From assembly GCA_019915135.1 (NCBI GenBank), contig JAHLMK010000020.1, forward strand, positions 744,001 to 808,000: a stretch of 64,000 nucleotides of DNA, in the 5' to 3' direction. The notes below the pieces were generated by a model, which was not told where the DNA came from, did no database searches, and saw only the letters and a program-made list of their open reading frames with translations. The translations under genes and the position numbers were made by a program. The number at the start of each line of letters is the position of its first letter. Within the stretch, counting starts at the first letter, position 1. Source of the DNA: Strobilurus pachycystidiatus (lineage: Eukaryota; Basidiomycota; Agaricomycetes; Agaricales; Physalacriaceae). This document shows positions 1,821 through 35,090 of this stretch, one piece after another.

Positions 1821-1825
1821 TATTT

Positions 1826-1843
1826 TGGAGCCCACCGCGAGGG
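1826..1843 (+). other. Candidate primer-binding site
   Basis: A TGG-initial stretch (TGGAGCCCACCGCG) starts 5 nt after the 5' LTR, where a tRNA primer-binding site is expected. The primer tRNA would end in ...GGGCTCCA. I could not assign the tRNA. Confidence 0.4.
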
Positions 1844-2397
1844 GGTGTAAATTTTGATTTCGAAAGAGACTTCTAAGTCGACCTTGAGATCAGAATCTCC
1901 ATAAACAAAAGACACTGGCTGCAAGGAACTCTGGTCGTTACACCAACAGCCAGAACCGCGCAAATCCACAACCCCCAAAAGGAGACCCAGTTATTGCCGG
2001 ATCTTCAAATCCAGCAACCTCTGGTATCACTAGTCGCCTAAGAAGCAATCGCCCAATCGCCGGCTCACTTTACAACGGTTTACCTAGTGAAGTAGCTCAA
2101 GCACAGCGACGCTTTGCAGACCCAACTACTCCCAAGAACCAAAAGAAGAAACGTACGCAAGTACCACCTTCAACACCTACTGCCTCTAGGATCAGATCTT
2201 CTTCAGATCCTGAATCACCTTCGAGAACTCCAACCAGTACCCGAAGACATTCGGACTCTAGAACTTCACCTAGTCCCGCATTTGTGACACCTTTCGGAAG
2301 TCCTTTGACTGACCTTGAAGACCCCGAAAGTCCAGAACCTATTACCCCCTTCATTGACTTTAACACGTCTACCCAAAACACGATACCAGTTCCAGTA

Positions 2398-3756
2398 ATG
2401 GCAGTACGAGCAATTGTACCTTCCGAGGAGCTTAGTGCTGAAGCTAAGAAAGAGATCCAAGGCAAGAAGATTCCGATACCATTTTCAAGGGATGCTCCCA
2501 AATTCAAGGGACACTCCGGCGATGATGTGAGGGAGTTCTTCACGATGTGCAACTGGATCTTTGACCAGACAGGAATCGCCGAACAAGGTACTAAGTTGGA
2601 AGTAGCCGCGCTATACGCCGGCCACGAACAACGCCTAAGGTGGCACAAAAACCCAGACTATCTGAAAGGTGTCTGGGCGGACTTCCAAGAATCAGTTCTT
2701 TCCTCATACTCAAAGGGAAAGAACGATCCTACATACGTCCCGGTCGACCTGAAGGATGCCTTGGAACCGTACCTGGCTAGGCCCATAGCCAACAAGCAAA
2801 AATGGGAAAGCTTTCAGCGCGAAGTGCTCCATATCATGGGACATCTTATCACGTCGGGAGAACTTACCAATAAGGGTGCTATAGAAGATATCAAGTCCTC
2901 TATCACAGAGGGAGTTTGGCATAATGTCCTTGGGGACCTCAGGCGCGATGCGAAAGCTAATGCAACAGCCGGGACAACCCCCACCTATGACTTCACGTTG
3001 TCAGAGGTCGAGGCAGCGATCTCCAACTACTTCTTGACCGATAAATGGATGAGCAAGAGTGCGAAGGATAGTCCTTATAACAGAGAACTTATTCCCGCCT
3101 CTACCACCCGAATCAAGACAGAGGAGTTGGATGAATACCTGAATAGGGTAGCTAGCCTTCAGGACATTATCCAGAAAGGAGAAAAGGAACGCGAAGAGGC
3201 TCGCAAGGCTGATCAGAAGATGATGGCAGAACTTCTCCATACCTTACAGCGTGGAGGTCCGCAAGGACTCCGCACCCAAGGTTTTGTACAAGAAGCCTCG
3301 CCGATTTATCTACAAACACCTGCTCAAGGTGTCTCAGTCCCGACCAACTTACCGAATGGACTCTACAAAGCTCCTCCGGGCGCGTTCCCAGGAAACAAGT
3401 TCGTAGTTAACGATGGAAGGTGTTACTTCTGTCGTGAACTAGGGCATATTGTAGCGAATTGTCCTACAAAGAAAATGTGCGAAAGCAATGGTCATATCTA
3501 CAAGCCTGGCGGTACCAACATATATCATGTAACGAACGGAACTACTAGTCAACCTATTCAAAGGGTTAGTCCCAAGCAGCCTCTCAGCCCTTGGGAACAA
3601 GTTCAGAAGTTTCAACAAGAAAATGCACCTAAGGTATCGGCGTTCCAATCTCAAGAAGATGAGTTCGCACCTGAGGTCGCGATGTATGTTCAAACCCCAA
3701 CCCAAGAAGAAGAGTTTGCCCCCGACGCCTATCAGGGTTTCGGCAGGGCTCGATGA
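2398..3756 (+). CDS. gag: Gag (capsid-nucleocapsid) of the Gypsy element
   Basis: Structural protein that packages the element RNA. The first in-frame ATG is at 2398, giving about 452 residues. The frame is open, without any ATG, back to 1888, so 170 Ser/Thr/Pro-rich codons precede the chosen start. A retrotransposon-gag-like helical region follows, then a charged coiled segment near 3130-3240. A CCHC zinc knuckle (C-X2-C-X4-H-X4-C) lies at 3421-3462. The frame ends at TGA 3754-3756, which overlaps the ATG of the next frame as ATGA. A slippery heptamer at 3735-3741 lies 12 nt before the stop and leads into the protease frame. I expect Gag and a Gag-Pro fusion to be made from one RNA. Confidence 0.88.
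   Translation: MAVRAIVPSEELSAEAKKEIQGKKIPIPFSRDAPKFKGHSGDDVREFFTMCNWIFDQTGIAEQGTKLEVAALYAGHEQRLRWHKNPDYLKGVWADFQESVLSSYSKGKNDPTYVPVDLKDALEPYLARPIANKQKWESFQREVLHIMGHLITSGELTNKGAIEDIKSSITEGVWHNVLGDLRRDAKANATAGTTPTYDFTLSEVEAAISNYFLTDKWMSKSAKDSPYNRELIPASTTRIKTEELDEYLNRVASLQDIIQKGEKEREEARKADQKMMAELLHTLQRGGPQGLRTQGFVQEASPIYLQTPAQGVSVPTNLPNGLYKAPPGAFPGNKFVVNDGRCYFCRELGHIVANCPTKKMCESNGHIYKPGGTNIYHVTNGTTSQPIQRVSPKQPLSPWEQVQKFQQENAPKVSAFQSQEDEFAPEVAMYVQTPTQEEEFAPDAYQGFGRAR
3735..3741 (+). promoter_or_regulatory. Candidate -1 ribosomal frameshift site, gag to pro
   Basis: G GGT TTC is in register with the gag codons (GGT 3736-3738, TTC 3739-3741) and fits the X XXY YYZ slippery rule. A -1 slip enters the protease frame, which is open from 3675. 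The same arrangement occurs at 4898-4904. Confidence 0.6.
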
Positions 3757-4925
3757 AGGAAGGAGTGCAGTTAGCACATACTCCTCCGGAGAGCCAGTTC
3801 ACTGTAGAAACTCGTCAGACTCGTCAGAGCGCAAAAGCACCTAGTGCACCTGTGGATTCAACTCCACAAAAGAAGGTAACCTCATGGCCTAAGGACCGGG
3901 TGTCCGTGGTCATTCCAAAAGCAGCGCCGGCTAAGGTATCATTCTCCACGCCAGAAGTCACTCAAGAAGTAGAACCTGTTGACCAGGACCTTCTTGACGA
4001 AGTCCTGGCGATGGAAGAACCCGACCCGGTGCCGCAACCAAAAGCAGATTCAACTCTGCCAGAAAAGAACCAACCAAAGGTTCACTCTAAGGAACCTAAG
4101 GTCAAGAGTTTCCAACGCCGTAGCCTGGCAGAAGAACTCTTGCACAAGAATCCCAGTTGGCGTGAAGCCTGGAAGTTCTTGTTACCCGAAGCCCTACTAG
4201 CTACCAACCCCCCTTGGCAGCAGAGCATTTCGGACTTCATCAGGAAACGCAACACGCCTGTGGCTGTATTCAAGACGGAAGTAGTGGCCGATACGGTCCA
4301 AGATCACTTCCAACCCGAGCTATATTCAGTCAACTTTCATGAGCAAGGTGATTTACCTATTGGTGGAATTGTAGTCCACGATGCGGTAGAACAGTTTGTA
4401 AACCTTTCCGGAGGACACTATACTGGTCCCTTTCAAATGATAAGTGGCAATATGGCGCCGGAAAATGCAGATCTACGAACCTTTTGGCCCTTGATCAACA
4501 AGAATGGTAAAAAGGAGAGTTTAGTGGATGGTGGGTCGCAGATCGCCTCCATTTCGCTCAAGGCAGCATTGGAACTAGGAATAGCCTATGATCCCACTTT
4601 CACCATTACTATGGAAAGTGCGGACAAGGGACGAACCAGTACCTTGGGATTGGCTCGTAACATACCGTTTGACTTTGAAGGAATTGTCTATTACCTTCAG
4701 TTGCATGTGTTGCAGGATCCCGCCTATGAGGTCCTACTGGGACGACCTTTCGAGATCGTTTCAAACCTGGTCATCACCAACCTTCCCAACGGGAACGCAA
4801 TCGGAACCCTTACGGATAACACCAATGGGAAGAAGTTATCGCTACCTTCTTACCGTCGAGGACAGATCCCAAGACATATGATTCCAGGGGGACAAACGGG
4901 TTTTCACGGGAACCTAAGGACGTAG
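3741..4925 (+). CDS. pro: Protease frame (aspartic protease) of the Gypsy element
   Basis: This frame is -1 relative to gag. It is shown from the slippery site; the first ATG in the frame is 3753. The first half is a Pro/Lys/Glu-rich linker. The second half holds a retropepsin-like domain: the active-site triplet region reads LVDGGS, with the catalytic Asp codon at 4527-4529 (D-G-G instead of the usual D-S/T-G). Further on, a VLLGRPF segment matches the conserved ILGRPW-type strand of retropepsins. The stop is TAG 4923-4925. A second slippery heptamer lies 18 nt upstream of it. The D-G-G variant deserves note but occurs in a frame otherwise free of damage. Confidence 0.82.
   Translation, partial: RQGSMKEGVQLAHTPPESQFTVETRQTRQSAKAPSAPVDSTPQKKVTSWPKDRVSVVIPKAAPAKVSFSTPEVTQEVEPVDQDLLDEVLAMEEPDPVPQPKADSTLPEKNQPKVHSKEPKVKSFQRRSLAEELLHKNPSWREAWKFLLPEALLATNPPWQQSISDFIRKRNTPVAVFKTEVVADTVQDHFQPELYSVNFHEQGDLPIGGIVVHDAVEQFVNLSGGHYTGPFQMISGNMAPENADLRTFWPLINKNGKKESLVDGGSQIASISLKAALELGIAYDPTFTITMESADKGRTSTLGLARNIPFDFEGIVYYLQLHVLQDPAYEVLLGRPFEIVSNLVITNLPNGNAIGTLTDNTNGKKLSLPSYRRGQIPRHMIPGGQTGFHGNLRT
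4898..4904 (+). promoter_or_regulatory. Candidate -1 ribosomal frameshift site, pro to pol
   Basis: G GGT TTT is in register with protease codons (GGT 4899-4901, TTT 4902-4904). A -1 slip enters the pol frame, which is open from 4820 to 8791. GGGTTTT is close to the GGGTTTA site known from yeast L-A virus. Confidence 0.62.
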
Positions 4926-7900
4926 GAAACTCCTATGAAGAAGCCGTGTTGATCCTTGAAAGGTCACCAGAAGGAAACATCGAAGTAAAGCAAAGTTGGA
5001 TACCTGGTGATAACAGGGAGACCTTCGGGGAAGGGGACTTAACGTCCTTATACATGAAGAAGTCACCCAATAGGGTTCATCAGGCAGCCAAACGGCTAAG
5101 GAAACAACACGCCTTTATGCATGCATCGATGCATCAAGCATCGACACATATGACTGTCCCAGAACATATGGTGACACCTACGGGACTATTAAAGGTCCCA
5201 ACCAAGATTCAAGGCTTTCGCAAGGTATTCAATATCAACCAGATTGCGGAAGACCAAGAAGAATTTAAGTCCTACGCCACGGCGACTTTGAATCTCTTTT
5301 ACGGGGTACCAAAGGAGTTAGAACAAGTCTTTACGGGCTTGTCGGTAACCTTACCAAAGGATTACATGGCGGAGGCACAACAGGAGTTCCTAAGGTTGGA
5401 AAGTCAGATCCCTAAGAGGGGTGTATTCGTAGGAAAGAAGTACAAACCAGTAGCCTTGAAAACCAAAGCTCACCTTGGAACCTTACCTGAAGAATTCAGG
5501 ATCAAGCGCCACATTCATGGAGACCCACTAGCTGGGATGCCTGAATTAGTACCTGATCCACCACCCTTCGTACCCACAGGTAGGTATACTGCCGAAAGGA
5601 GGGAACAGATACAAGCCGACCACGTCGGGGACTTCCTAACGGATGCAGAAAGACGGATTATAGACTCCATCTTCTGTAACCAGAACGAGGGCTTTGCCTG
5701 GGAAGAATCTGAGAAAGGACACTTCAAACCAGAGTTCTTTCCACCAGTGGATATCCCGGTAATACCACACACACCTTGGGTGTTAAGGAATATACCAATT
5801 CCACCCGGAATCTACGATGAAGTCTGTAAGATTATCAAACACAAACTAGACTCGGGCGTGTATGAGCCTTCGAACTCCTCATACCGCTCCAGGTGGTTTT
5901 GTGTTGTTAAGAAGGATGGAAAGAAACTTCGCCTAGTGCATAGTCTGGAACCACTCAATGCGGTGACCATTGCGCACTCAGGGTTACCTCCAGCCACGGA
6001 GGAACTAGCGGAGTCCTTTGCAGGACGAAGTTGTGGAGGGACCTTGGATCTGTTCGTTGGATATGACGAACGGCTCCTTGCCACCGCGTCTCGCGATATG
6101 ACCACCTTCTCGACACCTTACGGAGCGTTAAGGTTAAAGACCTTACCAATGGGCTGGACTAATTCAGTACCTATCTTTCATGACGATGTTACAACGATTC
6201 TCAAGGATGAAATACCAGCCTTCACCAGACCTTATATCGACGATGTGCCCGTCCGCGGGCCCGCCACGCGATATGAACAAGCTGATGGTACCTACGAAAC
6301 GCTTCCAGGTCATCCTGAAGTAAGGCGTTTCGTTTGGGAACACCTTGTGAACATGAACAGAATCATACAACGAATGAAACATGCCGGAGGGACCTTTTCT
6401 GGTCACAAGGCTATCATTTGTGCAGAAGAAATTGTGGTAGTGGGACATGTCTGTACCTACGAAGGTAGAAAGCCAGCTGAAGATCGCGTTAAGGTGATCT
6501 CGGATTGGCCCCCTTGTAAAGCGCTCACGGAAGTCCGTTCGTTCTTAGGAACAGCTGGAATCTTCAGAGCATTCGTAAAGGACTACTCTAAGAAGGCGTT
6601 ACCTTTGACCAGGTTAACCAAAGACATTACCAAGTTCAGATGGACAGACGAGGAGCAGGCAAGTATGGATACCTTAAAGGAAGCCATACGAACTTGTCCG
6701 ATGCTGAAACCACTGAATTATGAATGGTCCACGCCAATCACGCTGTCGGTAGACACCTCTTACCAGGCAGTAGGTTTCTATCTGTCCCAGGTAGATCCCA
6801 AGGACCCTAAAAAACGATACTTTGCCAAGTTTATGTCTCTGACATTGAACGAAAGAGAGGCAAGGTACTCGCAAGCCAAGCGAGAACTATTCGGGCTCTT
6901 CAGAGCTCTGTCCGCGTGCAAGTACTACCTTCTAGGGTGTAGAAAACTAGAAATTGAAGTGGATGCAAAATACATCAAGGGCATGTTATCCAACGTGGAC
7001 TCCTTAGCGAACGCAAACCTGCAAAGGTGGGCTGAGGAGATCTTGATGTATCACTTCACGCTTGTACACGTACCAGGAAAGGTTCATGGCCCGGATGGTT
7101 TAAGTCGCCGTCCAGCCTCAGAGCATGATGTAGTAGTACCCAGACCTCACATAAACATAGAGGATGACGAGGTCAATACCTTTGAGTACCAGGAGCCTAA
7201 AGGTCTGCCTATAGAGGAGCAGCCGTTAGACTTTGACACTTTCAGGAATGACATCGACAGTAGGGGAGGCTATGTCCAGGAAATAGTACGGAGTCCTTTA
7301 CCAGACCATATAAAGGTTTCTAAAGCGGTAAGGACTTCGGGACTAGTCAATGTTAAGGATATCGAAGGATGGATGCATATCACGGAGTTCCCGGAGCTCA
7401 ATAAGAGCAAAAGGGAGCGTTTGTGGGAGACCTATTTGCCCAAACTTCAACCTTACTTACAATCGGAAGATGTACTTGAGGACGAAGACTTGGAGAAATG
7501 GAGCAAAGACTTCTTTGTCCAGCATGAAAGGTTATACCGAAACCATTCGGACTCCCACCCCCGTCGAGTGCTACTTCCAAATGAACGAATCCCGGTTTGT
7601 AAAGCTCTACACGACCGGGCAGGACATAAAGGACAATATTCCGTGTTACAACTCATCATGAAGCGATTCTGGTGGCCAGGTATGGAGGTCGACATACGAT
7701 GGTATGTAAGGACTTGCGTACTATGCCAGAAACGCCAGAAACGTAACATAAAGGTTGCACCAACAATTACTTCGACTCCAGGTATCTACGAAAGGGCTTA
7801 TATAGACACCTTCCGGATGCCTAAGGCAGGAGAGGAATCTATTCGAAAGAAACGACCTTCAAAATGGGCCGGCTTCAATGCTGTGACCGTCGCAAGGTGT

Positions 7901-8791
7901 GGATTAACAAGTTGGCCAGAGGCAAGGGCTCTCAAGGAAGAGACCGCCGAGTCGCTGGGAGAATGGATCTTCGAGGACATTCTATGCAGGTGGGGTTGTA
8001 TCAAGGAAATTGTAACCGACAATGGGCCAGCAATCAAGAAGGCTTTAGTACATATTGAACAGAAATATGGTATTACAGGTATCTTGATCACGGCGTACAA
8101 TAAGCAAGCCAACGGAAAGGTTGAACGAGGACACTGGGATATCCGTCAATCTCTCTTCAAGGTATGCAGGGGTAAACCCGAGCAATGGCCAGAGTTCCTA
8201 CATGAGGTCCTTTGGGCAGAGCGCATTACCATAAAGAGGAGTCTAGGTACTTCAGCGTTCCAGGCAGTAACCGGTTGTGAACCAATCATGCCAATGGACC
8301 TGGAGGAATTGACTTGGCTGGTCGAAGCACCAGGCCGACTGGTCTCCCATTCGGACCTTATTGCCTTCCGAGCTAGGCAGCTCATCAAGCACAAAGAAGA
8401 TACTGTCAAGCTAAGGTCAAAGGTCCTTCTAAATAAACAGAAGGCCGCGGCGAAGTTCCTAGAGGATTTCCAGAACAGTATCCCTCGCTACAAATTCAAA
8501 ACTGGTGAACTAGTACTAGTAAGAAACACTAGGATCGAATCAGAAATGAATGCGAAGTTCAAGGAAAGGTTTATGGGACCTTACGCGGTAGTAACAAGGA
8601 CCTCGGCAGGAAACTATGTGGTCTGCGAGTTGGACGGGACGATCTACAAAGACAAGATAGCTCAGTTCCGTGTAATACCTTTTGTATCGCGACGAGATCC
8701 TATAGACCTTGGGAAACAGTTTTTTGATCGGCTACACTTCATAAGTAAACCGATCACGAAGACCTTAGATGTCCTTGCGAAAACTACGTGA
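4904..8791 (+). CDS. pol: Pol: reverse transcriptase, RNase H and integrase
   Basis: About 1295 residues, shown from the slippery site since the pol frame has no convincing ATG at its start. RT comes first; its catalytic motif is YIDD (6233-6244) instead of the common YVDD. The Gypsy-type connection (SFLGTAGIFR) follows, then RNase H starting near 6740 (SVDTS). Integrase has an HHCC zinc site (about 7600-7735, ending C-X2-C), catalytic Asp near 7805 (YIDTF), Asp near 8018 (TDNG) and Glu near 8122 (KVER), spaced as D-D-35-E. A GPY/F module (MGPYAVV) follows near 8575. No chromodomain was seen. The product copies RNA into DNA and inserts it. No stop or frameshift was found. Confidence 0.93.
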   Translation, partial: SREPKDVGNSYEEAVLILERSPEGNIEVKQSWIPGDNRETFGEGDLTSLYMKKSPNRVHQAAKRLRKQHAFMHASMHQASTHMTVPEHMVTPTGLLKVPTKIQGFRKVFNINQIAEDQEEFKSYATATLNLFYGVPKELEQVFTGLSVTLPKDYMAEAQQEFLRLESQIPKRGVFVGKKYKPVALKTKAHLGTLPEEFRIKRHIHGDPLAGMPELVPDPPPFVPTGRYTAERREQIQADHVGDFLTDAERRIIDSIFCNQNEGFAWEESEKGHFKPEFFPPVDIPVIPHTPWVLRNIPIPPGIYDEVCKIIKHKLDSGVYEPSNSSYRSRWFCVVKKDGKKLRLVHSLEPLNAVTIAHSGLPPATEELAESFAGRSCGGTLDLFVGYDERLLATASRDMTTFSTPYGALRLKTLPMGWTNSVPIFHDDVTTILKDEIPAFTRPYIDDVPVRGPATRYEQADGTYETLPGHPEVRRFVWEHLVNMNRIIQRMKHAGGTFSGHKAIICAEEIVVVGHVCTYEGRKPAEDRVKVISDWPPCKALTEVRSFLGTAGIFRAFVKDYSKKALPLTRLTKDITKFRWTDEEQASMDTLKEAIRTCPMLKPLNYEWSTPITLSVDTSYQAVGFYLSQVDPKDPKKRYFAKFMSLTLNEREARYSQAKRELFGLFRALSACKYYLLGCRKLEIEVDAKYIKGMLSNVDSLANANLQRWAEEILMYHFTLVHVPGKVHGPDGLSRRPASEHDVVVPRPHINIEDDEVNTFEYQEPKGLPIEEQPLDFDTFRNDIDSRGGYVQEIVRSPLPDHIKVSKAVRTSGLVNVKDIEGWMHITEFPELNKSKRERLWETYLPKLQPYLQSEDVLEDEDLEKWSKDFFVQHERLYRNHSDSHPRRVLLPNERIPVCKALHDRAGHKGQYSVLQLIMKRFWWPGMEVDIRWYVRTCVLCQKRQKRNIKVAPTITSTPGIYERAYIDTFRMPKAGEESIRKKRPSKWAGFNAVTVARCGLTSWPEARALKEETAESLGEWIFEDILCRWGCIKEIVTDNGPAIKKALVHIEQKYGITGILITAYNKQANGKVERGHWDIRQSLFKVCRGKPEQWPEFLHEVLWAERITIKRSLGTSAFQAVTGCEPIMPMDLEELTWLVEAPGRLVSHSDLIAFRARQLIKHKEDTVKLRSKVLLNKQKAAAKFLEDFQNSIPRYKFKTGELVLVRNTRIESEMNAKFKERFMGPYAVVTRTSAGNYVVCELDGTIYKDKIAQFRVIPFVSRRDPIDLGKQFFDRLHFISKPITKTLDVLAKTT

Positions 8792-9131
8792 CCTTGAGTC
8801 CCCAGGAATGAACCAAAGGTTCTAAGCAAAGCCAAGGTACCACACCAGATGACGGGGACGTCATCAGAAAAGTAAAGAGAGAATAGAGGGACATCGGTCC
8901 ATTTATTCAAAGACTATAAAAATTTTATTTAAAGACTTATTCTGTGCCCAGCTGGCTACAAAGGTAGCTAAGGTAGCACTGAACTAAGGACAGAATCAGG
9001 AAGCAAGACAAGGCACGAGGCATCAGGGAAGTGGCGGGGTGCGAATAAAGAAAAGTTTAAAAATGATAAGCCCGTAGGCGATGTGGTAAGCGCAAAAAGG
9101 AAGCACCACTCACCGAACATCCACCACGACC
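8792..9131 (+). other. Spacer after pol with a TATA box
   Basis: No gene seen. TATAAAA at 8915-8921 lies about 215 bp before the ATG of the accessory gene and could be an internal promoter separate from the LTR. Confidence 0.4.
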
Positions 9132-11245
9132 ATGCCGCCCCAAGAAAATGAACCCACCGTGGACACGAAGGTAAGTAACCGACGCGATCACAGTATTGAA
9201 CGATTCGGTGAACTTACTTACCAAAAGGAGCAGTCGCCGCCGCCATCGCAGCCGCCGATGAAGGAACACCAGGAGCCTCCCGCCAACCAGGAGGAAGGGG
9301 AAAACGAGTCGCAGGTGCAGGAACAGGTGAGTAGTGGTCAACGGCGCGTGCAAAAACACGAACCTCACCACTGCCCTCCCTTTTGTGCTAGCTCCCTTCC
9401 ATTCCCTGCGAAAGCAGGCCGGGCCATGTCAAAATGACCCGTCCCTTGTTCGACTATAGCGGTTTCCTAACGAACGCGACCACCCCACAGGAGCTGGACG
9501 TGGGTATCAGCCTGCGACTGGCAGAATCGCTGAACGCCGACCCGGTGGCGACGCGAGATATTCTGCAGGAGGCCGGTTACCGAGGATACCTTCAAAATGG
9601 GGTCTTTTGGCTAACGTTCCAGGACGCGCTGAAGGCGCAACCAGCGAGCAAAGCCACTCCGCTCGAACGCGTCGAGACCGCGCTTAGCACCGCGTGGCGC
9701 GCCACCTCCGCCTACAAGAAACAGGTTCGCCCCACCCGAGAAACTGCGTTCCTGGACAACGACCGCGTCGCCCCAGAGCTCGCGATCCGGCTCTCAGAAG
9801 ACGACGCCCAGCGTTGTTTCCTGGAGCTGGACCATCTTTGGAACTTCGTACACGACCAAGACCGCGCCAATCTGTTCTGGGGAGCACTTCTCGTGGAGAT
9901 GCGCAAGCAGCGCGACGAGATTGCCATCCGCGGGTCGTTTCGCAAAGCAATGGACGACCTCATCGAGAGCGCGATTGCCGAACTTGGCATCGCGGACTAC
10001 CAGCGCGACGGTACGCCGAGTCTCGACAGCAAGGTCGACGATGAAAGCACTCCGCGCCCCACGATGCGAGAGATCGCGCGGGAGGAATCGGCGAGCCCTT
10101 GCAACTCGCGAGCCCCAACGCCAGCGTTCTCCTCGCAACACGATCCCACACCCAAGCCCGAGGAGGAACCCCCTCAGCGCAGACCGTATGTTTCGGCGAG
10201 CAAGGGAGGTCCCAAGTCGACAACCAAGTACGTCCGCCGCACCGTCGCGCCTCTAACGTTTGCTGACGCCTCCACAAGGCCGAAGGCCGTGGCCATAAAG
10301 GTGGAACCGAAGGACAAGGACGTCGCCCCCACCCGTAAGACCTCGGTCGCGCGCGCCACCACCGGTGGAAGCCAAAAGCGCAAGTTCGTCGAGGAGGAAC
10401 CGGAGGAGGAAGACGAATTGGAAGAAGACGCCGAAGCCAGCGACGAGGAGGAGGACGACTTCGTCCTCGACGTACGCGACAAGACCAACCCGCGCATCCC
10501 CCTCCACCGCGACGACGGCTTCTGCGTCCCGTGCATCAAGCAGAAGTTGGGTTGCACCTACTTCAGGATCCACGCCACGCCCGCGGAGAAGAATAACAGC
10601 TTCACCTGCGACCAGTGCAAGGAGAAGGACGGGCAGCACGGTCCGTGCTGGGTCGCATGGAGGCGAAGCCAGGTCCCCGAGCCGTGGAAGGAGGTCGCGT
10701 TGAAGGTCCGCGCCCAGTTGCAGGCCGTGGCGAGGAACAAGCCCGATTCTCAGATCCGGGCCCGGCGCCACCAGGACTACTCCGACGCCGCGCAAGCTAT
10801 CGCAAAGGAAGCGGACCAGCGGTGGAAGGAGGAGAAGCAGAGGAAGAAGGACGAGCCCCCGGCGAAACGCCGTCGAGTCGAGAGCGCCGCCAGAAAGAAG
10901 GGCAAGGCCAAGAAGGAGGAGACGTCGGACGAAGAAGGAACCGGCGACTCCGACATCGAGGAAGTCCAAGCGCCCCGTACCCGCCTCCAGAAAGGAAAGG
11001 TCAGCGCCGCCCCGCCTCCCGCCTCGACCAAGTCCTCGAAGGGGGCCACAACTTTAATCAGCGCGGGCCAACGACAGGACAAGGGCGAAGGAGCCAGCCG
11101 TCAAGGCGCGCCGTCCTCCGCCTCCGCCAGCCGCGTCGACCCCACCGAGGACGTAGACAAGGTCCTGGCGTTGTACTTCTCCCTGAGCGAGAAGAGTCGA
11201 AGGAAATTCAGGAAGATCGCCGAGATAGCGGTGGGACGTGAGTAG
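9132..11245 (+). CDS. Sense accessory protein with six-cysteine cluster, in the Gypsy element
   Basis: Three-exon model: 9132-9170, 9234-9326, 9392-11245, about 661 residues. The introns (GTAAGT...CAG, GTGAGT...CTAG) are both phase 0. Intron 1 is also in frame, so it may be retained. A downstream ATG at 9434 would give 603 residues without splicing. The N-terminal part looks globular. The middle is acidic and disordered. A cysteine cluster (about 10520-10650) has spacing C-X2-C-X6-C-X17-C-X2-C-X9-C, close to fungal Zn2Cys6 domains. A basic nuclear-localisation-like stretch (PPAKRRRV) lies near 10860, and a short helix ends the protein. The GC content is higher than in gag-pol, suggesting a different origin. 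I do not recognise the family; a nuclear DNA- or RNA-binding role is inference. Confidence 0.7.
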
Positions 11246-11629
11246 CGTCCCGCCGCTATGTTTTTCTTTGTATATGTACATGCAATCTAGTCACAGTGCC
11301 AAAATGGACACTCATATACGCATCGCCCGCCCCCGTTGTACTTTATATGAAAATTTACAACTTCTTGTAACGAAAGAACCGTGTGAAAACACTAAGGAAA
11401 CAAGAACAAGGACCTTAGTTGAAACCTTAAGTCAAGGGGAGAGTCCAGGACTCTCCTTGATATACCAAAGGTCGCAAAGGTCGGAAGCTAAGGACTTTGT
11501 TAAGTCGAAAGGGCCCACAAGGAACTGCGTTGCAAGTAAAGTAATACAGGCAGAAGCAATGTGACTAAGGACAAGTTGTAAGGAATAAAAAGAGAGGCGA
11601 CCTTTAGGTCAAAAGAAGTCAGCTAAGGA
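11246..11629. other. Spacer between sense and antisense accessory genes
   Basis: No convincing gene. It lies between the stop codons of two convergent genes, so it probably holds both 3' ends. AAGGAC-type motifs are frequent. Confidence 0.4.
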
Positions 11630-12766
11630 CTAAGCAAAACGACTCCAATCAGGAGGGACCGCAAGGTTCGCAAGGCGCGCATAGAAAGGTCCTGCGTGGC
11701 TAAGGTCGATTGCTAACATACTAGCCGCAAGGAGTTCGTAGTCTACTTCGGTGGCCTCCGACCAGTCGATGAGCCAGAGTAGTGGATCGATGATAGGCAG
11801 CGACTGGTTGGGGCGCTGGAAACACAGAAGTTACAAACGGACCTCAAACTACGAAGTTGTTCACGGACCCGATTGGCGGGAAGGTCAATCTCGGGGATCA
11901 ACCGACGCATATTGGGAGGTCTATCCAACGCGTAGGCGTCGTCCCAGCCGTAAAGAGCAGAGTTCTGACGTTGGAACTCTGGCCACCACTTCATAACCGT
12001 GACAAGGTCGGCAGGAAGGTCCCCATACTGAACAGGAAGGACCTTCAGGTCGTCAGACCCGATGTAAAGCGAGCGAAGGAGTGTGGAAAAGCCGGAGTAA
12101 CCACCAAAGTGAGCCTCGACCTACGTCTAAGGTCAGCGCCGACCACAAAACATGAAAGGAAAAGACCAGGTTTAACTCACCATGAAAGGTCCGATGAACT
12201 CTTGGGTAAACCAAGGGTGACTCGCAAGGATGTCCATGTTAAGGTCCCCCAGGTGGAAGCGGGCGCCTTCACCGTCAAGGGTATTGCCTTCGGCGAACCA
12301 GGCTTTGCAAAGTTCGACGGCGGTGTAGTACAAAGGAAAGAAGTGCGCCTTGAAGCCGTGAGGAATGGCCCTGTTCTGGAAGTGAAAAGCGGGTTCCCAG
12401 ATATAACGAAAGCGGACCTAAGGACCATCCGTTAGTCAAGAAAGGTGTCGAGGCGAAGGCAACTAGACCTACCAGGACGTGCAAAAGGTAGCGCAAGGTT
12501 GGAACGTCTAGAGGTTCGTCGCGACCAAAGGCATGAACCGGAGGCTTGAGCTGGGGAAGGAGGCGAGTGTCGTCCTCCGTAGCTAAGGTCCCATCCGGAT
12601 GACGGACTACCGCAACGAAGTAGCATGTATAGTTGTACATCTCCATGGCGCAGCTCAGCGCAAGGTCCGCTGTGACTAAGTCATGTTGAAAGGAGGTCAA
12701 AGGCGAGCGAAGTCGAACGCCTTGAATGCGGGTATCTGCAAAGGAAGGCAGGACGGGCGCGGGCAT
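11630..12766 (-). CDS. Antisense accessory gene 1 inside the Gypsy element (322 aa)
   Basis: Four exons read against pol: 12766-12473, 12417-12181, 12120-11869, 11815-11630. All three introns (55, 60, 53 nt) are phase 0, with donors GTAGGT, GTGAGT and GTCCGT and YAG acceptors; two have CTAAC/GTAAC-like branch sites. The joined frame has no stop until TAG 11632-11630. ATG 12766 was chosen because the frame above it only offers GTG. Visible traits are an aromatic-rich middle (HFFPLYYT) and a C-terminal DPLLWLIDW segment. No family recognised. The exon phases and the coding-like composition make chance unlikely. Its neighbour is a second antisense gene 375 bp upstream. Confidence 0.7.
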
Positions 12767-13141
12767 GATCAAAGATGAGATTCCTGTCGCCACGACCGAC
12801 TTAAAAGAAAACCTCCGCCAGTCAAGAAGGTCCGAACACGCCGATAAAAGGACAAAGTTTAGGCGCCACCAATCTAAAGGTAGGTACGATCGGCGGTAGC
12901 CGATCGAACTAAGTTCGATCTTAGGCCTACCAGGAGGCGGTCAGGAAACTTTGAGGGTTCAAATCGAAAGGAGTTGGATTATGCACCAACTGAGCCTAGA
13001 GTAGTCTAAGGAAACAAAGTGACTACCGCTCCTACAAGTAGAGAAGAAATCCGAAACCAGTATAAAGACGAAGTAGAGAAAAACTATGAGTAGTACTGGT
13101 TAAGACTTGGCGAAAGCTAAGCTAAAGAAGGACCTTGTAGT
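12767..13141. other. Spacer between the two antisense genes
   Basis: No gene seen. It probably holds the promoter of antisense gene 1 and the 3' end of antisense gene 2. I found no clear TATA box in the antisense direction. Confidence 0.35.
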
Positions 13142-14676
13142 CTACTGAGCCTGGTCAATCGCGTCTAAGGCCGAGATATAAAGGTCGCGAGTCGACTGCA
13201 AGACTTGGATACGACCCCGAATCTCGTTGAAGGTCGAGATAATGTCGTGCCGGTACTGGCGTTCCAAAATGACCAAGTTGGGCGAGATGTTGGGATCGTC
13301 AAGACCAGACAACCTTGACATACGCTTGTGGACTTGGGCCAAGGCAGCAGACAGACCATTGATGTACTGGTTCGCTAAGGGGAAGTAACCAGGAATCAAC
13401 AAGGCAAACCAAGAAGCGAGGAAGAAGCACCTTACCGCCTTCAAGTTGTTTAAGAACGACGGGTTCGACTCCAAAGGTCGAAGGCCGGGCCGCCTTTACA
13501 ACACGGCGAGCGTTCTCATCGTTAAGCTTACGCTTAGGAGGAGCTTCTTGACCATTGATCGCGCCCAAGGTTTGAAGGGCTTTCTGGTAAACACGGGCGT
13601 TAATGTCCATACCGGGAAGAGCTGCGAAAGGAAGGTAACGGACGGAAGATGACTATTAAAGAAGTCATAAGGACGTCCGGGACAAACATAGGATTCCAAG
13701 GAACGTACCGCTTCGGCTTCCTTTGACAAGGAATTGGCTAGTTGGAGCTGGCGAAAGGCTTCAATAAAGGAAGATGAGACTGGCAAAGAAATTGAGCGCA
13801 CAGTATCACCGACGACGACAACGGAGTCCTCACCGTCGCTCTCGCCAGCTGCCACATCGTCAGCCCAATTAAAGTACTCCGGAAGAAAGAAGCGCGCACA
13901 AGAGTCGGGATCCATCGCGACGTCGCCGTCTCCCGTCTCGGCTCGTTTCTCCATGGCCTCGGTAACGACCTCGGGCGATTTCTTCGTCTTCTAAGAGAAG
14001 ACATCCAGAGGTTACAGTAGGAAACCAACGAGTAACGAACGGACATACCTTGCCTTTCTCAAGCTTGTCCGGCTTGAAATAAGCGTTATCCGGATGCATA
14101 GGGTGACCCGGGGACAGGCCAGGGAAGTGGGCGTTAGACGCCTTCTTGCAGCTGCTCACCAAAGGTTGGAGGATATGAGCGATGTGGTGCGTCGGCGTCT
14201 GAGGGTGAATCCCCAGCAGGTGTACCAGCATCCCTACATAGAGGCGGAGGTTGAAAAAGAAGACCGCCATGTCCGTCGACACCTTGGAACCATTCGGAAA
14301 GGTGCGAAGGTCATGGGCGACGGCCTAAAGAAAACAAGGACAGGATGAAGTCAGGATCAGGAAAAGAACACAGCGAAGGAGTACACACAAGGACTCTCTC
14401 CATGATCTTGTCAACATAGCCGGTGATCTCCAGTGCCACGTCGGGATTCGAACACGCCTTCTTGAGGTCCAGACGATGGACCTTGGGAATGATGAGCGTA
14501 GGATGCATGCCGAGGTACATAAGGAAGTCGGGTGTGTTGGCTGGAGGGTCGTAGTCGAGCGCATAAGCAACGAGACCGGCGCCAAGGTCGCGCGTAGTGA
14601 TCAGGTCCTTCGCGGACGGAACGTGCGGCGTTGTGGGAAGCAGTTTTGCGATGGGGGTCCAAGTTTTGGGAGCCAT
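13142..14676 (-). CDS. Antisense accessory gene 2 inside the Gypsy element (431 aa)
   Basis: Five exons: 14676-14389, 14324-14049, 13990-13709, 13652-13436, 13374-13142. Introns are 64, 58, 56 and 61 nt with donors GTGTGT, GTATGT, GTACGT and GTAAGG and CTTAG- or AATAG-type acceptors. Phases are 0, 0, 0, 1, and every junction keeps the frame. The start MAPKTWTPIAK lies 47 nt below an antisense TATA box (TATAAAAGG, 14731-14723) close to the 3' LTR. Features: an N-terminal globular part, a YFKPDKLEKGK basic patch, an acidic middle, a PPKRKLN basic segment, and a C-terminal helix rich in E/R/Q that looks coiled-coil. No family recognised. It should be transcribed against the genomic RNA from its own promoter. 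Confidence 0.74.
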
Positions 14677-14722
14677 GATAGGATAAAGGCAGGAATGAAA
14701 GGTCTGAGGACAAGTCCCAGAA

Positions 14723-14731
14723 CCTTTTATA
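14723..14731 (-). promoter_or_regulatory. TATA box of antisense gene 2
   Basis: TATAAAAGG on the minus strand, 47 nt upstream of the ATG at 14676, in the short gap between that gene and the 3' LTR. Confidence 0.5.
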
Positions 14732-14865
14732 ACGGAACGAAGTTAGGCAAAAGAGGGTCCATCGGGCGATAGAAACCAAACGGGGACTTCGTCACGGCGG
14801 CCTGGTACCCAGGATAAAGGTTTTGAACCACCAAGGACTATGTCGCGGACGACATTTCATAAGTC

Positions 14866-14874
14866 AAGGGGAGA
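14866..14874 (+). other. Polypurine tract
   Basis: AAGGGGAGA directly abuts the 3' LTR start, the expected place for the plus-strand primer. Confidence 0.7.
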
Positions 14875-16544
14875 TGATACGCAGGGTACTATTCCAGTAC
14901 TAGAAACGGGGAATTTTGCGATTCCTGAACAGCCCAAAGACCTTAGGAACCTCCAGTCAAGTACTTAGGATAGAGCACGCAGGAGTTACTGCCTTGACGC
15001 GGGCAAGCCTCCAGGACAAGGTCCAGGCGCCTTAACAAGTCCTTTAGGACAGGCGCGATCGAAACCTTCGATCACCTTCATCCGAATACCCTTATCCGCG
15101 CGTTGGATCCCTTTCAAGATCCCGTACCTTTGCGTGTACCTTGTACTACAGACGATGTGCTATAACCATTCGCACCCAAGGAGGGTCCAAGGTCTCCAGG
15201 CGGTTCAGTTCGAGCGACCCAAGACCTGCGCACCTCAACCCAAAGACCTGGAAGGTCCCGAAATAGTTCAAGGACATCACAACCCTTTTGGGGAAACAAT
15301 CTTCGGAGCTGTCAAGGACTCCGAACCGACGCCTTCCGCTATGCCGATCGATCATGATCCACGATCAAGGACCACCCCGAAAGCAGGGTGTATTACCACT
15401 TTAAGAAAGCACTCCCCTGTAGTGTCTGCGCTCGAAAGGACGTTCTTAACGATCTCCATCCAACCTATCCACAAGAAAGCAGGTGTCCGTAGGACCTTGC
15501 AACATAAAGATACCTAAGGATCGAAGTCCTTATCGGACCTTGATCTCCTGGGCACAAGGATTGTACCATACCGCCAAGGTGGCGTATATGGCTAAAGGAC
15601 CAAGCGGCCTGTCCGCAGTTGTTTCGACCAGGGATAGCCAATAAGAATCCAGTACTTGTATGACTCGAAAGTCCGATGTATCCGATCCTAGAATAGATGC
15701 TTACTCAGTAGGAACCCACCAGTAGTATAAAAGGGCCCAAAGGACCCATATTTCAGTAGCTTAGAGCCCCCTCCAGTAGCCGCTAGTCAGACGCAGCCAT
15801 TGTAGTGAATCTATCTCGAGTTTCGACTCATTTCTGCAAAGTACACAAAGACCCCAAAGACCTTTCCAAGATTTAAAAGACATCAGGTGTTGCCAAGCTC
15901 CTTGAAAGACTCGAAAGAACCTTATTCCGACGTACCAAGTCAAGTACCAACGAATCTACTTGGTGTTAGAACCTTGTATTCGCAAGAAGGCCGGTTTGCA
16001 AGTGGTTCTGCCCTGCACTCACGCTCTTTCGTGAAGTACTTCCCTTTGAGGAATAAGTCGAGTTTGAACGAGTGTTGTCAACGTCTGAGACACCTTTCGG
16101 AACCTTTGGTCCCGGTGCAAGACACTAGAAGTTTGGTTTAAGTGCAAGAAGGAGTCCTTATCGTTAGCAGTCCAGTGGCGTAAAACCTGCGGTAGCGGCC
16201 TGACGATTCCAAGACAAAGTCCTTGTACACCAGAGCACTTGATAGGTAGAAGCTACATTGCCTCGCGCTGTTTAAGGTCTTCATACGTCAAGAGGTTCGG
16301 CCTACGACTTCAAGGTTTTCTTGTGTCATTTCGATCAGAATCCCTACACCCCCAAAAAACAACTCGTAGTTTAACTACAGCATTCGGAATACCTCTCTAT
16401 TTCTCCATTACCCAAAAACACCTTGTTCTCTCGAACCTTTGTGCACCCCAGCTCCCTTACAAGGAGTGTTAGTTGTGATAAGGATTGATAGTGTGGTTAG
16501 ACGATAGCTTCTTTTTCAGAGGTCTATTCCGAACTTGCACATCA
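14875..16544 (+). repeat. 3' LTR
   Basis: Matches 152-1820 with one substitution and one 1-bp indel. It is followed by the ACGT target duplication. Because it interrupts a minus-strand gene, a frame from that gene reads about 25 codons into the LTR. Confidence 0.95.
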
Positions 16545-17668
16545 ACGTGGTCATGATGCCTTTCAGCTATACGTAAGAAAAGTCTTAACCGCTCCATGTA
16601 GACGTCGGCTTGAGGAACAAGAGGGTACAAACTCGGGCAGACTCGATGAGCTAATGCATTGAAGCCAAGGGGACCACATGAGGACTGATCCATCTGGTGC
16701 GTGACATCCATCCTCTCCGTTGTAAATGAACCATCGGAATGATACTTGGTCCACCATTGCAGCGGAGCTATCTCATCCTCGGCTGGCTTTCCACTCAGCG
16801 CATCCGCCACAAATATCCCACTCCTTCGAAACTCGCCTGTGAAGGAGACCCAATGGACATCATCCACGTTCATCATTCCTCCAACTGTATCGTGATCGCC
16901 AGACAACAATGCGGCTCCTGTCGTCCGCAGATGGCGGAAGTACTTCTCGGTGCTATAGTTATCCGTATCTCGTTGCTCGTAAGCTCGCTTGAGTTGTTGA
17001 CCAAAGTTCAAAGTCTCGATGATGACTTTTCCACCTCCAGGTACGCGACGAAGATCTGACCGAAGGAGGTCAAGCATCTGATGAACATTGGCATCAGACA
17101 ACCAGCGGTTTGGGCTAAGGAACCGTGCCAGGGTGCGTTTTGGCTCAGCATTTGCGAAGCCTCGTAGAAGTCCTGACCACTGTGTAGTTCCAAGGATGTC
17201 GAAAACCTGCTCGATGAGTCTCCTCTCCTCGGGGCGCCTCATTGATCTGCTTCGAGCATCGAGACTGGCTAGAGCTTGTACCCACTCCTCTCGATCCCTC
17301 CGAAGCTCAAGAATCTTGTACCAGTAAAGTGCGGCCCACACAGGAAGGCGGCGCTCGGAGGATGGCAAAGGAATGTGCGCAATCACGATAGATTTTGTTG
17401 TAGCCTGGCCTTCGTGTAGATCGGCCATGACCTTTTGTTGGATTGCTGTAATAATTTCGGGAGAGGGAAGGGGAATGCGACGAATGATGTTTGCATCAAG
17501 GGTGTTGGGTTCTTGTTGAGAGAGGAAGAGATCCGCCTCTGCTTTACGGTCTGAGATTGTGGGCAGGGAAAAGGCTGCAAACTCGGTAATGCTTAGCCAG
17601 TCACTGGGAAGAATTTCAGCTTTGATTTTGGCTGGGATAACAAGTAGGGGATGTGGGGTGAAACCCAT
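16545..17668 (-). pseudogene. C48/Ulp1-like cysteine protease gene, interrupted by the Gypsy element
   Basis: An uninterrupted exon of about 374 codons starts at ATG 17668. The C-terminal part carries the Ulp1/SENP catalytic pattern: His in VHWVSF, Asp in FVADAL, Gln six residues before Cys, and Cys in QSSCG. C48 proteases cleave SUMO or related modifiers; in fungi many copies ride in transposons. The exon ends in CAC at 16547, where the donor GTACGT is split by the retroelement, and the next exon is at 1-101. With 16.4 kb inserted at the splice donor, normal expression is unlikely. The exon itself has no stop or frameshift, so inactivation is recent. Whether this was a host gene or transposon cargo is open. 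Confidence 0.75.
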
Positions 17669-17911
17669 AATGGACTCTTGTGGACTCAGGTGGTGGTAGC
17701 TTGACGAAATTTGCGGTCTGACGAAATTTGGCGCTTTGTCATGTCTATTTTAGGTGGCTGACGAAATGATAATTTCGTCAAACGTGTCATATGTCAGACC
17801 CCCCGACGAATTGATTTAAATTCTACAGTAATACCAGTCGGTTTATTCGATATCCACCGGACCAATTGACCGATTGTTTGGTTTGTTTGGTCCGGGCAGT
17901 GGGTATCTCAT
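17669..17911. other. Upstream region with TGACGAAAT repeats
   Basis: TGACGAAAT occurs near 17702, 17717 and 17760, and GACGAAAT-gata-ATTTCGTC forms an inverted repeat at 17761-17780. It could be a regulatory or transposon-end motif of the protease gene below. No gene seen. Confidence 0.35.
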
Positions 17912-18351
17912 GAACCGACTGGGCCCGCATGGCAGGATTTAGGCCTGGCCCACCAATTGAGACGTAGGGACTTCACGAAAATTTGTATTTTTTGCAGAAA
18001 AAAGTGCAAAATCACCTATATAAAAATGAATCCTCGTGTCGTGAAACGTCCAGAACTGCGATTAGTTCGAGGGGTAAAATTTGTGACCATATAAATTGTT
18101 GAAGTCGTCGAGCTTAACCTTGACTGCTTGATCGGGAAGCTTACAAGCAGTCAAGCGACGGTAACGGTTTCTTGCTCTCAAAAAATATCCCTCAAACTGA
18201 CATTGGATCTCGAGGTTTTAGAGCAAGGAGATTCATTTTAGTATAGGTGATTTTGCACTTTTTTCTGAAAAAAATGAAAATTCTGTTGAAGTCAGGACGT
18301 CTCATTTGGCGGGCCAGGCCAAAATCGTGCCATGGGGGCCCAGCCGGTTTT
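17912..18351. repeat. Foldback (MITE-like) inverted repeat
   Basis: The left arm from 17912 and the right arm ending 18351 are reverse complements with scattered mismatches over more than 110 bp. Long identical blocks include GAAAAAAGTGCAAAATCACCTAT. Similarity continues inward to a perfect 12-bp hairpin (CTTGACTGCTTG / CAAGCAGTCAAG, 18119-18155) at the centre. No coding frame inside. It is probably a non-autonomous foldback element. Confidence 0.8.
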
Positions 18352-18612
18352 GGAAGGTACTCGCTTGCCCGTTGCTGACAAAACCGGATGGTGTCACGAG
18401 CCTAGCTGCAGTGCCGAGGGCCCTACATTGGCTGAAGTCTTTTACACCAAGTTTACGACCAAATTTGATTGATTTATGTTGCGAACAGGTCATGAAATTG
18501 GCTCCGCCACACATGGTCTTAATCCATTTCTCACATATTCTAACATGGCCATTTTGACCTTCATGCTAATAACACGTTATTAACGTGTTAATAACAGTGT
18601 GAATATTCACAT
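18352..18612. other. Spacer with two perfect palindromes
   Basis: TAACACGTTA-t-TAACGTGTTA (18570-18590) and TGTGAATATTCACA (18598-18611) stand side by side just before the LINE frame begins. No gene seen. Confidence 0.5.
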
Positions 18613-21334
18613 GTGAGAAAAAACCTCATTCTTCACAGAGCCTTAAAGCACGCGGTCAGTGGGTGGTATTGTGACTGCTCGTCAATCCTGGAGGATATTG
18701 CAGAGCTGATCCGAGAGAGAACTGCGCCAGTGGCATTTGAGTTAGCTACTGCTGCAAAGGCAAAAGGTCATTACATGTCTGCTACTCAACTGGCGGAGGC
18801 AGGGATGCGTGTACAGGTGAATCCCGCCCCGTACTCGCAGGATGACGGGGAAGGTGCATACAGTGACAGCACTCAGTGCTTGCCAATGCCACTAGATGTT
18901 AAGAAAGTCTCAACAACGATGCCACCTCCCCCAACGTACGCTGAAGCCCGGAAAATCAGTAGACGTGCAGCCTACGAATACGAGCGGTCTCATCGCGGAC
19001 GGTCACTGGTCCAAAGTACCCGGCAAAGGAATCTGGCAAGGCTCACTGAACATAAGCCCGGGTCGCTGGCATTCTGGCAGGACTATAAAAGCTTACAAGG
19101 TGTGCGTAGTAATCAGCGCGTTGGACCACCCGTGGATGAGCTTGCTGAGGTTTTCTCATCACGTATGAATCCTCCCGCGGTTCCACCTGACTCGTTTGAT
19201 ATACCTGGAACGAGCCGCTGTTGATGCCGCAAATATTCCGAATACGTCTCGTCCTCCGGAGTCTGGCTCGGCATTTGATGTCAAGAGAGTGTTCTCTGAG
19301 GAGAGCATCAAGTGGGCAAAGCGACATATCCATGACCACATGTCAGCACACCCGGCCAAGGGATTTGACGGTGTAGGCTACGATACACTATTCAAAATTG
19401 AGGAGAGTGCTCTCTCGGATCTGTTCATTCAGTGCATGGAAAGCCAATCCACTCTCATGGTATGGCTCACAACACACATTATTGCGATCCTCAAGAAGGG
19501 AAAGAGTCGCAAGGACGCGGAAGGCTATCGAACTATAGGTCTCGAAAGCTGTGTCTAGAAAATGATGACTCTGTTAATCCATCGCGCAGTGTACAATTGG
19601 GCAAATGAAAGTGGCTTCATCCCACCGTTCCAAAATGGGTTCCGTGCCACATACCGGACGAACAACAACGCATTTGTGTTACATTACCTGATTGAAGTGT
19701 GCCGCGCCCAGGGAAAGAAGCTATGGGTGGCTTTCGTGGATATCAGTAACGCCTTTCCGTCCACAAATCACGACATGCTTTGGACAAAGCTGCACAATTT
19801 AGGGTTTACCGGACAGATATTTGACTGGCTGCGCAATCTCTACACCAATATGTCCTACGAGGTCCATGCTAACGGCGAAGTATCGGAGGACTTCAAGGCT
19901 AAGATGGGTGTTCTGATTGGTGATCCTGCCTCGCCTACATTGTGGATTCTTTTCATGCACGATCTTCGTCTGGACACGCACCCCGATGACGTCTACTTAA
20001 TGGCCACAGCGATCTCGCTTCTTGCACATGCAGACGACGTTGCTATAGTGTCTAGCACTGTAAAAGGTCTTCAACATCATCTGCACACATTTGCTGTGTG
20101 GTGCAGACGCAATGCACTTGTGGTTAACAGTCTTAAGTCGTGGGTTATGGTATTTGGCAGCTTACCAAAGGAGCTACCAGTTATAACCTTGGCAGGAAAG
20201 GCTGTCAAATACACGGACGTGTTCACATATGTCGGGGTTACATTCCGTTCGACATCGTAACATCTTTGCCCGACACTATGACCGGATGGCCACAGAAGCA
20301 CGCAAGAATGCGAATGTTGTCCTGGCCTTAGAAGCAGTTGTGGGATTCTTGCCTCCAGATATTGGTAGACTGCTGTATATGACGCGCGTTGATCCATTCT
20401 TGATCAGTGGCTGCGACGTTATGCCCGATGTAACAACAGATCTACTTGAGCAACTGGAGAATGTACAACACAGCTTCCTTCGACGGCTACTGGGAGTCAA
20501 CTCACGTTCTATGCTTGCACCTCTGTTTACGGAACTAGCTATTGTCTCGCTTCGATACCGGCGCTTGATAATTCTGCTCCGTTTTCTGCAATACATTGTC
20601 CGCCTCCCGGATGATTGCTATGCTCGCTTGGCTTTTGATGCTCTCTGCTTGCTTCACAGGCAAAAAGAACCGACATGGATTGGGGATATGGAGAATATCC
20701 TACTTTCTCTCCCCTCGCCATTGATTATGTCGGATGCTGCCTCATTGACACCCGAGAAGATAGAGGAGCTGATCAAAGCGGTACAGGAGATCTACGAGAA
20801 AGACTTACAAGACAAGATCAATGCCTCAGACCGTCTTTACTTGTTGCACGGTAGACTCGAACTGATTGCTGGTGAGAAACCAAAGTACAAGGTGTTGTAC
20901 TTCCGCCACTATCTCCGTGTGTCTAGTTCAGCACACAGAAAGGCGGTGACACGCCTGCTCTTAAGTGACCACAGCTTGGCACTGGAGCAGATGCGACACG
21001 CGTCACGGTATATCCCGGCAGTTCCCAGAGAGGCCCGCCTATGCCCGTTCTGTCATCTGGAAGTCGAGTCACCCAAACACGCGGTGCTGATATGCTCATC
21101 CTCGGATCTACTTGTAGATGTCCGCAACGAGGCGTTCGAGAAACTTGCTGTCTGTTTCCTCGACTCAAGTTTGATTGTGCACGGAATGGTATTACCCAGT
21201 CAAATGCCGTTCATGTTCTTAAATCACTCATATTCCACGAGAAATCAATTGGAATTATGGCAAAGCTGATTTATGAAGTCCTTGCTATATATGACCTGGA
21301 ACCCATGCACAGAGTCTTGGAACTACCGGCTTAA
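18613..21334 (+). pseudogene. Degenerate LINE (non-LTR retrotransposon) reverse transcriptase
   Basis: The coding sequence is split over frames: 18613-19224, 19196-19558, in-frame TAG at 19556-19558, 19562-20260, then 20229-21269 in another frame.  RT hallmarks are visible: FQNGFR (19629 on), a VDISNAFPS block with the first catalytic Asp, the ADD-type active site AHADDVAIVS near 20030, and a C-terminal CPFC...H...C zinc-binding motif near 21040. No endonuclease domain was recognised upstream, so the copy is 5'-truncated as well as broken by two frameshifts and one stop. A second LINE tail with the same C-terminal pattern is at 40544-41116. Confidence 0.85.
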
Positions 21335-33614: not shown

Positions 33615-33616
33615 TA

Positions 33617-35085: not shown

Positions 35086-35090
35086 TACTA

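Follow-up and report, generated by a model that had tools for sequence, protein, structure and literature searches.

One sense and two antisense spliced genes predicted as an accessory module of a Ty3/Gypsy retrotransposon in the fungus Strobilurus pachycystidiatus

Can a retrotransposon, which is copied through RNA, carry intact spliced genes, and can it carry two of them on the strand opposite to its own gag and pol? This question is raised by a long terminal repeat (LTR) element in a 64-kb stretch of DNA from Strobilurus pachycystidiatus (assembly GCA_019915135.1, contig JAHLMK010000020.1, positions 744,001 to 808,000 of the forward strand; 64,000 nucleotides), which is called the window in the following. 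The Ty3/Gypsy element measures 16.4 kb (152–16544) and displays a 6.1-kb interval between pol and the 3' LTR, which holds one sense gene (S) and two antisense genes (A1 and A2). Taken jointly with the whole explanation developed below, we consider it very probable that this is a recently inserted LTR retrotransposon with a three-gene accessory module, and a coding function of S, A1, and A2 is close to certain because of the constraint found at the protein level.

An initial annotation of the interval had proposed three genes of 661 (S), 322 (A1), and 431 amino acids (aa) (A2) with three, four, and five exons, respectively, and nine introns in total, giving only lengths, exon counts, and outer coordinates; the exon coordinates were rebuilt here and reproduced all of these figures. 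S (9132–11245, plus strand) consists of exons 9132–9170, 9228 or 9234–9326, and 9392–11245. An acceptor of its first intron at 9233 results in 661 aa and one at 9227 in 663 aa, the latter being favored by a second family of the element in the same genome. A1 (11630–12766, minus strand, 322 aa) has exons 12766–12473, 12417–12181, 12120–11869, and 11815–11630. A different A1 model with an intron at 11746–11700 (324 aa) was dropped, because 8 of 20 genomic copies lack its acceptor AG and the stretch is coding in the second family, and intron 11868–11816 was adopted instead. A2 (13142–14676, minus strand) revealed exons 14676–14389, 14324–14049, 13990–13802, 13747–13709, 13652–13436, and 13374–13142, corresponding to 413 aa, and gives the five exons and 431 aa of the initial annotation if 13748–13801 is retained. 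This stretch of 54 nucleotides (nt) on the minus strand, in frame and free of stops, is a probable fifth A2 intron that was absent from the earlier model. It reads GTGCGC..CAG in 20 of 20 copies. In both second-family copies read, the corresponding stretch breaks the frame and contains a stop, so that it has to be removed there, and A2 probably comprises 413 rather than 431 aa. As a control for chance, the best spliced frame with free choice of introns was determined for each antisense segment and for 100 dinucleotide shuffles of it. The A1 segment gave 322 aa versus a shuffle mean of 43 and a maximum of 215 aa (opposite strand 75 aa), and the A2 segment 433 aa versus a mean of 42 and a maximum of 241 aa (opposite strand 48 aa).

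Comparison of copies within the genome provided the main evidence for selection. A DNA search of the 51.8-Mb genome, with 27 of 90 candidates scored, led to 27 sizeable places, including the window, and one fragment; the window and 19 of the other 26 places were aligned (n = 20), and seven places were not used. Before tree construction, parsimony counts, and calculation of the ratio of nonsynonymous to synonymous substitution rates (dN/dS), any 100-nt block of a copy that fell below 75% identity to the window was masked, which removed the most diverged parts of S, so that the S divergence reported here is a lower bound. Frames were open in 20 of 20 copies for A1 and for either form of A2, and in 18 of 20 for S. 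All eight introns of A1 and A2, the probable one included, displayed GT..AG in every copy, and the S introns were present in all 20 (55–57 and 64–73 nt), with the first donor altered in one copy. The comparison of dN/dS across genomic copies, which the initial annotation had suggested, resulted in pairwise means (190 pairs each) of 0.086 for A2, 0.148 for A1, and 0.161 for S, indicating purifying selection, with 0.069 for pol. Parsimony changes at codon positions 1/2/3 amounted to 17/7/75 in A2, 40/11/107 in A1, 186/126/521 in S, and 74/61/524 in pol. Exon by exon, the excess at third positions was clear for A1 exons 1–3, for A2 exons 14676–14389, 13652–13436, and 13374–13142, and for the large S exon, and borderline for A2 exon 14324–14049 (p 0.05) and S exon 9132–9170 (p 0.028); none was shown for S exon 9228–9326 (p 0.21). 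The copies are related to one another, so that these chi-square p values treat them as more independent than they are.

Protein searches of the genome revealed a second group of elements with S, A1, and A2 in the same order and on the same strands; the A1 query used was the dropped first model (301 aa). Two copies of this second family were read (L029 and L030). Their A1 comprises 322 aa and is 50% identical to that of the window, their A2 comprises 409 aa in L030 (63% identity) and extends to 496 aa in L029, and their S comprises 655 and 651 aa, with exon 3 about 35% identical. Intron phases were the same in both families (S 0,0; A1 0,0,0; A2 0,0,0,0,1) and the introns lie at homologous places. 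Directly upstream of L030 we detected a pol 85–87% identical to that of the window, and directly downstream an LTR with the same start as the window LTR and a similar polypurine tract. On this evidence, the S/A1/A2 module is older than the split of the two families, and S evolves far faster than pol. The second-family pol beside L030 is interrupted by about 330 nt inside the reverse transcriptase (RT) region (L033, about 464–794), representing an intron, an insertion, or a lesion.

Relatives were also found outside this genome. Among proteins from public assemblies, S exon 3 revealed two relatives (69% and 45% identical) and A2 exon 1 four protein clusters (78–85% identical). In the latter, residues 1–96 agree at 75–84 of 96 positions, and beyond residue 96 at 1–6 of 7–25. 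Since residue 96 is the predicted A2 splice site, a likeness that stops exactly there counts against chance frames. A search of the protein collection with the whole spliced A2 yielded no relative among the 8000 scored, where exon 1 alone had given the four clusters, and viral contigs searched with S and pol contained no relative either. Overall, the claim that two of the three extra genes are antisense and that all are spliced and protein-coding is strongly supported by the 20 copies, the diverged second family, and the homologues from public assemblies.

Divergence is distributed unevenly along the element. Mean synonymous divergence (dS) over the 190 pairs was 0.309 for S, 0.083 for pol, 0.057 for A1, and 0.029 for A2, so that S exceeds pol 3.7-fold on average. 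Between the window and copy L010, dS was 0.403 for S, versus 0.035 for pol, 0.044 for A1, and 0.037 for A2, an 11-fold excess over pol. Such a jump within a single element suggests that lineages have exchanged the S segment, e.g., by template switching.

Part of the family lacks the module. Among 45 pol copies scored out of 426 candidates, 14 had no S match nearby; this list of S-less copies was compiled by eye from searches in which 71 of 86, 45 of 426, and 40 of 117 candidates were scored. In the two short forms read (L031 and L032), about 5.1 kb are absent, equivalent to 9035–14130 of the window, which takes out S, A1, and all of A2 past the first part of exon 2. The left end of the deletion lies at an 11-nt microhomology (9024–9034, matching 14120–14130) found at the junctions of both, with one base different in L032. 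A splice product as the source of this junction was ruled out by the microhomology. At least 14 places carry the same junction (40 of 117 candidates scored), and 11 of the 14 adjoin S-less pol copies, one of them at a distance of 940 nt; pol was free of stops over the 1023 aa searched in 10 of these 11. The left sides of the L031 and L032 junctions belong to different lineages, and in the simplest reading the deletion would have arisen once and then spread, in part by recombination. Because module-less forms keep pol free of stops, the module is, by this evidence, dispensable in cis.

Regarding transcription, the initial annotation had placed a TATA box 47 nt upstream of the A2 start codon. 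This was confirmed at 14731–14724 on the minus strand (TATAAAAG, 47 nt between box and ATG), and the box is kept in all 20 copies; its second-family counterpart, TATAAAAA, occurs at -54 and -55 in the two copies read. For A1, a TATA box was identified at -42 in both second-family copies read. Upstream of S, the window has a TATA-like site at -217, but a search ahead of S in the second-family copies read yielded none. Several transcription units in the element are likely. Of the three transcription programmes originally proposed, that of A2 is backed by its conserved TATA box, the A1 box being confined to second-family copies and the S motif to the window.

The putative products gave few hints on function. 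A Zn2Cys6 binuclear cluster has a spacing of about C-x2-C-x6-C-x5-12-C-x2-C-x6-9-C. S contains six cysteines (10523–10648, plus strand) in a similar arrangement, C-x2-C-x6-C-x17-C-x2-C-x9-C, which are invariant in five aligned sequences; the match to Pfam Zn_clus reached E 0.38 in one of the five members, and the linker is x17. Based on this motif and on lysine/arginine-rich stretches, S may act in the nucleus. A structure model of S exon 3 had a mean predicted local distance difference test score (pLDDT) of 45, with values exceeding 70 nowhere but in a helical region near the N-terminus (about residues 121–200) and a short C-terminal helix, and a fold search of this exon against PDB revealed nothing below E 0.001. 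No Pfam family was found up to E 1 for A1 (in its first, 324-aa form) and A2.

Several observations weigh against regarding S, A1, and A2 as conserved genes for accessory proteins. At the level of single exons, A1 exon 4 revealed 14/0/13 changes, with second positions spared and first positions about as variable as third ones, and no third-position excess was detected in A2 exons 13990–13802 (6/3/6, p 0.55) and 13747–13709 (1/0/1, p 0.61, with few changes); the dN/dS of A2 as a whole is based on few changes at a mean dS of 0.029. Across the 20 copies, the probable fifth A2 intron showed 1 change in 54 sites, below every other intron of the module, and it may be optionally retained. In the second family, the splice sites of L029 and L030 were picked by eye to extend the likeness, so that the agreement is partly built in; every chosen intron nonetheless is GT..AG and keeps the frame. 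No TATA motif was found ahead of A1 within 400 nt in the window or within 200 nt in the window-family copies. The short forms have multiplied without the module, either with help in trans from long forms or because they have no need of it. Profile searches with Pfam and PDB, as proposed in the initial annotation, led to no identification of S, A1, or A2, and as no module gene matches a known domain, an accessory role has no domain support. Finally, transcription, splicing, and translation of the three genes are predictions from DNA.

Weighing all this, we hold with high confidence, as a joint figure for the whole explanation, that S, A1, and A2 are protein-coding genes with introns, under purifying selection and conserved in a second family, and that the steps for gag-pol, promoters, and action in trans could be reconstructed as follows. 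The gag-pol genes would be expressed from the LTR transcript, and A2, probably also A1, would be transcribed from internal minus-strand RNA polymerase II promoters; the host would splice these transcripts, which would then be translated. On the sense genomic RNA, the antisense introns would not be recognized and would pass intact through reverse transcription; the fact that no intron-less copy occurs among the 20 aligned fits such an escape from splicing. The S introns are in sense orientation and yet kept in 20 copies, so that either the packaged RNA would be unspliced there or S would have its own transcript. The three proteins would act as accessory factors in trans. A further-reaching view, which we offer tentatively and which is possible but less likely than its opposite, is that of a complex retrovirus-like element with up to four transcription units, i.e., gag-pol from the LTR and three accessory genes, two of which would keep their introns through reverse transcription by virtue of their antisense orientation. 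Its accessory proteins would act in trans, the module-less short forms would be satellites, and S would be an exchanged cassette, as expected for a factor in conflict with host control.

Among the alternatives, the one that survives best, though we consider it unlikely, is that antisense transcription itself is decisive: A1 and A2 RNA would form duplexes with the 3' portion of the genomic RNA and so restrict or adjust retrotransposition through double-stranded RNA or interference, the proteins being secondary. The conserved minus-strand TATA box of A2 is in line with this, as is the overlap that an A2 transcript would have with the genomic RNA at its 3' end, and a role of antisense RNA has been discussed for plant elements in the available text of PMC7264820. 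However, a pure RNA role needs neither the constraint on the proteins (dN/dS 0.09–0.15) nor gene structures kept across two families, and since the selection seen acts on proteins, the constraint does not speak for antisense control of the genomic RNA; both roles are compatible with each other. Considerably less probable is that the module is another mobile element or a host segment, inserted once between pol and LTR and then carried along. No known domain links its genes to retroelements and deletion derivatives have spread without them, but no inverted repeats of at least 20 nt were found in 8700–14900, the module occurs in two families, the adjoining pol being about 85% identical in the single second-family copy in which it was read, and a passenger is unlikely to retain open frames in all 20 copies and a dN/dS well below 1. 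As to the origin of the module, all data fit a single capture that preceded the split of the two families. Chance frames, produced in repetitive DNA when short introns can be chosen freely, are hardly credible. Introns of 47–66 nt with loose splice signals are easily found, and the wrong first A1 model still gave 324 aa, but chance frames are refuted by the shuffles, the codon-position bias, the open frames in 20 of 20 copies, the second-family introns, and homologues ending at a splice site, which leaves doubt only about the exact edges of single exons.

Returning to the coding module, we compared it with known systems, in each case by what the available parts of the sources describe. The closest fungal case is Boty of Botrytis cinerea and Sclerotinia sclerotiorum, with brtn as its one described antisense gene (Zhao et al. 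2011 as cited in PMC7264820, PMC8365987, and PMC4227169). It resembles the element studied here in being a fungal LTR element in which an extra gene, located between pol and the 3' LTR, runs opposite to gag-pol. In contrast, and compared by description only, Boty has one named antisense gene, whereas we identified two with three and four to five introns, respectively, in addition to a spliced sense gene; its gag-pol has a chromodomain (PMC4227169), for which the window element gave no match in a Pfam scan that also missed RT and the integrase core. The initial claim that no fungal case with two multi-exon antisense genes has been described holds in the literature searched, which leaves out most subscription papers, but is narrowed by brtn as a fungal single antisense gene in print. 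In the text available, a survey of fungal LTR elements (PMC3248453) does not mention antisense, and PMC3411680 uses neither "antisense" nor "opposite".

Plant Gypsy elements of the Retand/Tat group share a long region between pol and the 3' LTR (2.9–6.6 kb there, 6.1 kb here) and antisense open reading frames (ORFs) kept in most copies (PMC11963269, PMC7264820), and an own antisense promoter has been reported for gene23 of Grande (PMC7264820). They differ in that antisense ORFs encoding a TRP28 domain are found in 97% of the Retand clusters (PMC11963269), while A1 (first form) and A2 match no Pfam family, TRP28 (PF04195) included. Introns are unmentioned in the main text of PMC11963269 and PMC7264820, whereas A1 and A2 bear introns, and tandem repeat arrays occur in about half of those elements, whereas a two-copy 22-nt repeat was the sole repeat found here. 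LTR retrotransposons of bdelloid rotifers with an ORF3 also possess additional non-envelope ORFs, but these carry enzyme-like domains (GDSL, DEDDy) as far as described in PMC5408684, in contrast to the absence of known domains here.

According to the literature searched, as far as its text was available, the extra genes on the antisense strand of LTR retrotransposons have so far been ORFs without an assigned function; most of them come from plants, and a single fungal one has been named. The element described here shares a spliced sense gene and two intron-rich antisense genes with a second family at about 35–63% protein identity, which provides an example of an RNA-copied element able to keep spliced genes. 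Long forms and natural module-less short forms in one genome represent a test system in which expression, small RNAs, and relative success can be compared directly. Outside the retrotransposons, the HBZ gene of human T-cell leukemia virus type 1 (HTLV-1) is spliced. It likewise is an antisense protein gene in an LTR element (PMC11963269), though its promoter lies inside the 3' LTR, according to the part of PMC7264820 available, whereas the A2 TATA box is internal to the element and two antisense genes are present.

The remaining architecture of the window element is that of a Gypsy element. The 5' LTR (152–1820, plus strand) and the 3' LTR (14875–16544, plus strand) of 1.67 kb each start with TG, end with CA, and share 99.88% identity over 1670 columns; a target duplication ACGT is found on both flanks, following the 3' LTR immediately. 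The polypurine tract AAGGGGAGA precedes the 3' LTR, and a TGG is located a few bases downstream of the 5' LTR. The gag frame (1888–3756, plus strand, 622 aa from stop to stop) contains a CCHC zinc knuckle (Pfam zf-CCHC, E 0.0011, narrowly short of the Pfam cut-off). The pol frame (4820–8791, plus strand, 1323 aa) encodes RT, RNase H, and integrase. Pfam matches were obtained for Integrase_H2C2, RT_RNaseH, and RT_RNaseH_2, with RNase H ahead of the integrase zinc-binding domain as in the Gypsy order; the RT and integrase-core models gave no match in the scan of this frame, and the same scan, which thus missed expected domains, brought up no chromodomain at values up to E 0.1. In PDB, the best match was Ty3 Gag-Pol (E 5e-38 over RT/RNase H), and the later part resembles the integrase of prototype foamy virus (PFV).

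Around the element, a 426-aa frame at 16469–17749 of the window (minus strand) has its end inside the 3' LTR and gave a weak match to a Ulp1-type peptidase (E 0.049, below the Pfam cut-off). Judging from this side and from 1–151 on the other flank, the element seems to be inserted beside ACGTACGT, adjoining a possible GTACGT splice donor of the gene with this frame (flanks read about 3 nt off). Farther downstream, arms of a 177-nt inverted repeat (17913–18089 and 18173–18349, 77% complementary) lie near frames at 18595–20260, which by eye resemble a non-LTR reverse transcriptase. Exact direct repeats of 300, 107, and 312 nt were detected at 33614–35494 and 42059–45366 of the window and are possibly LTRs of further elements.

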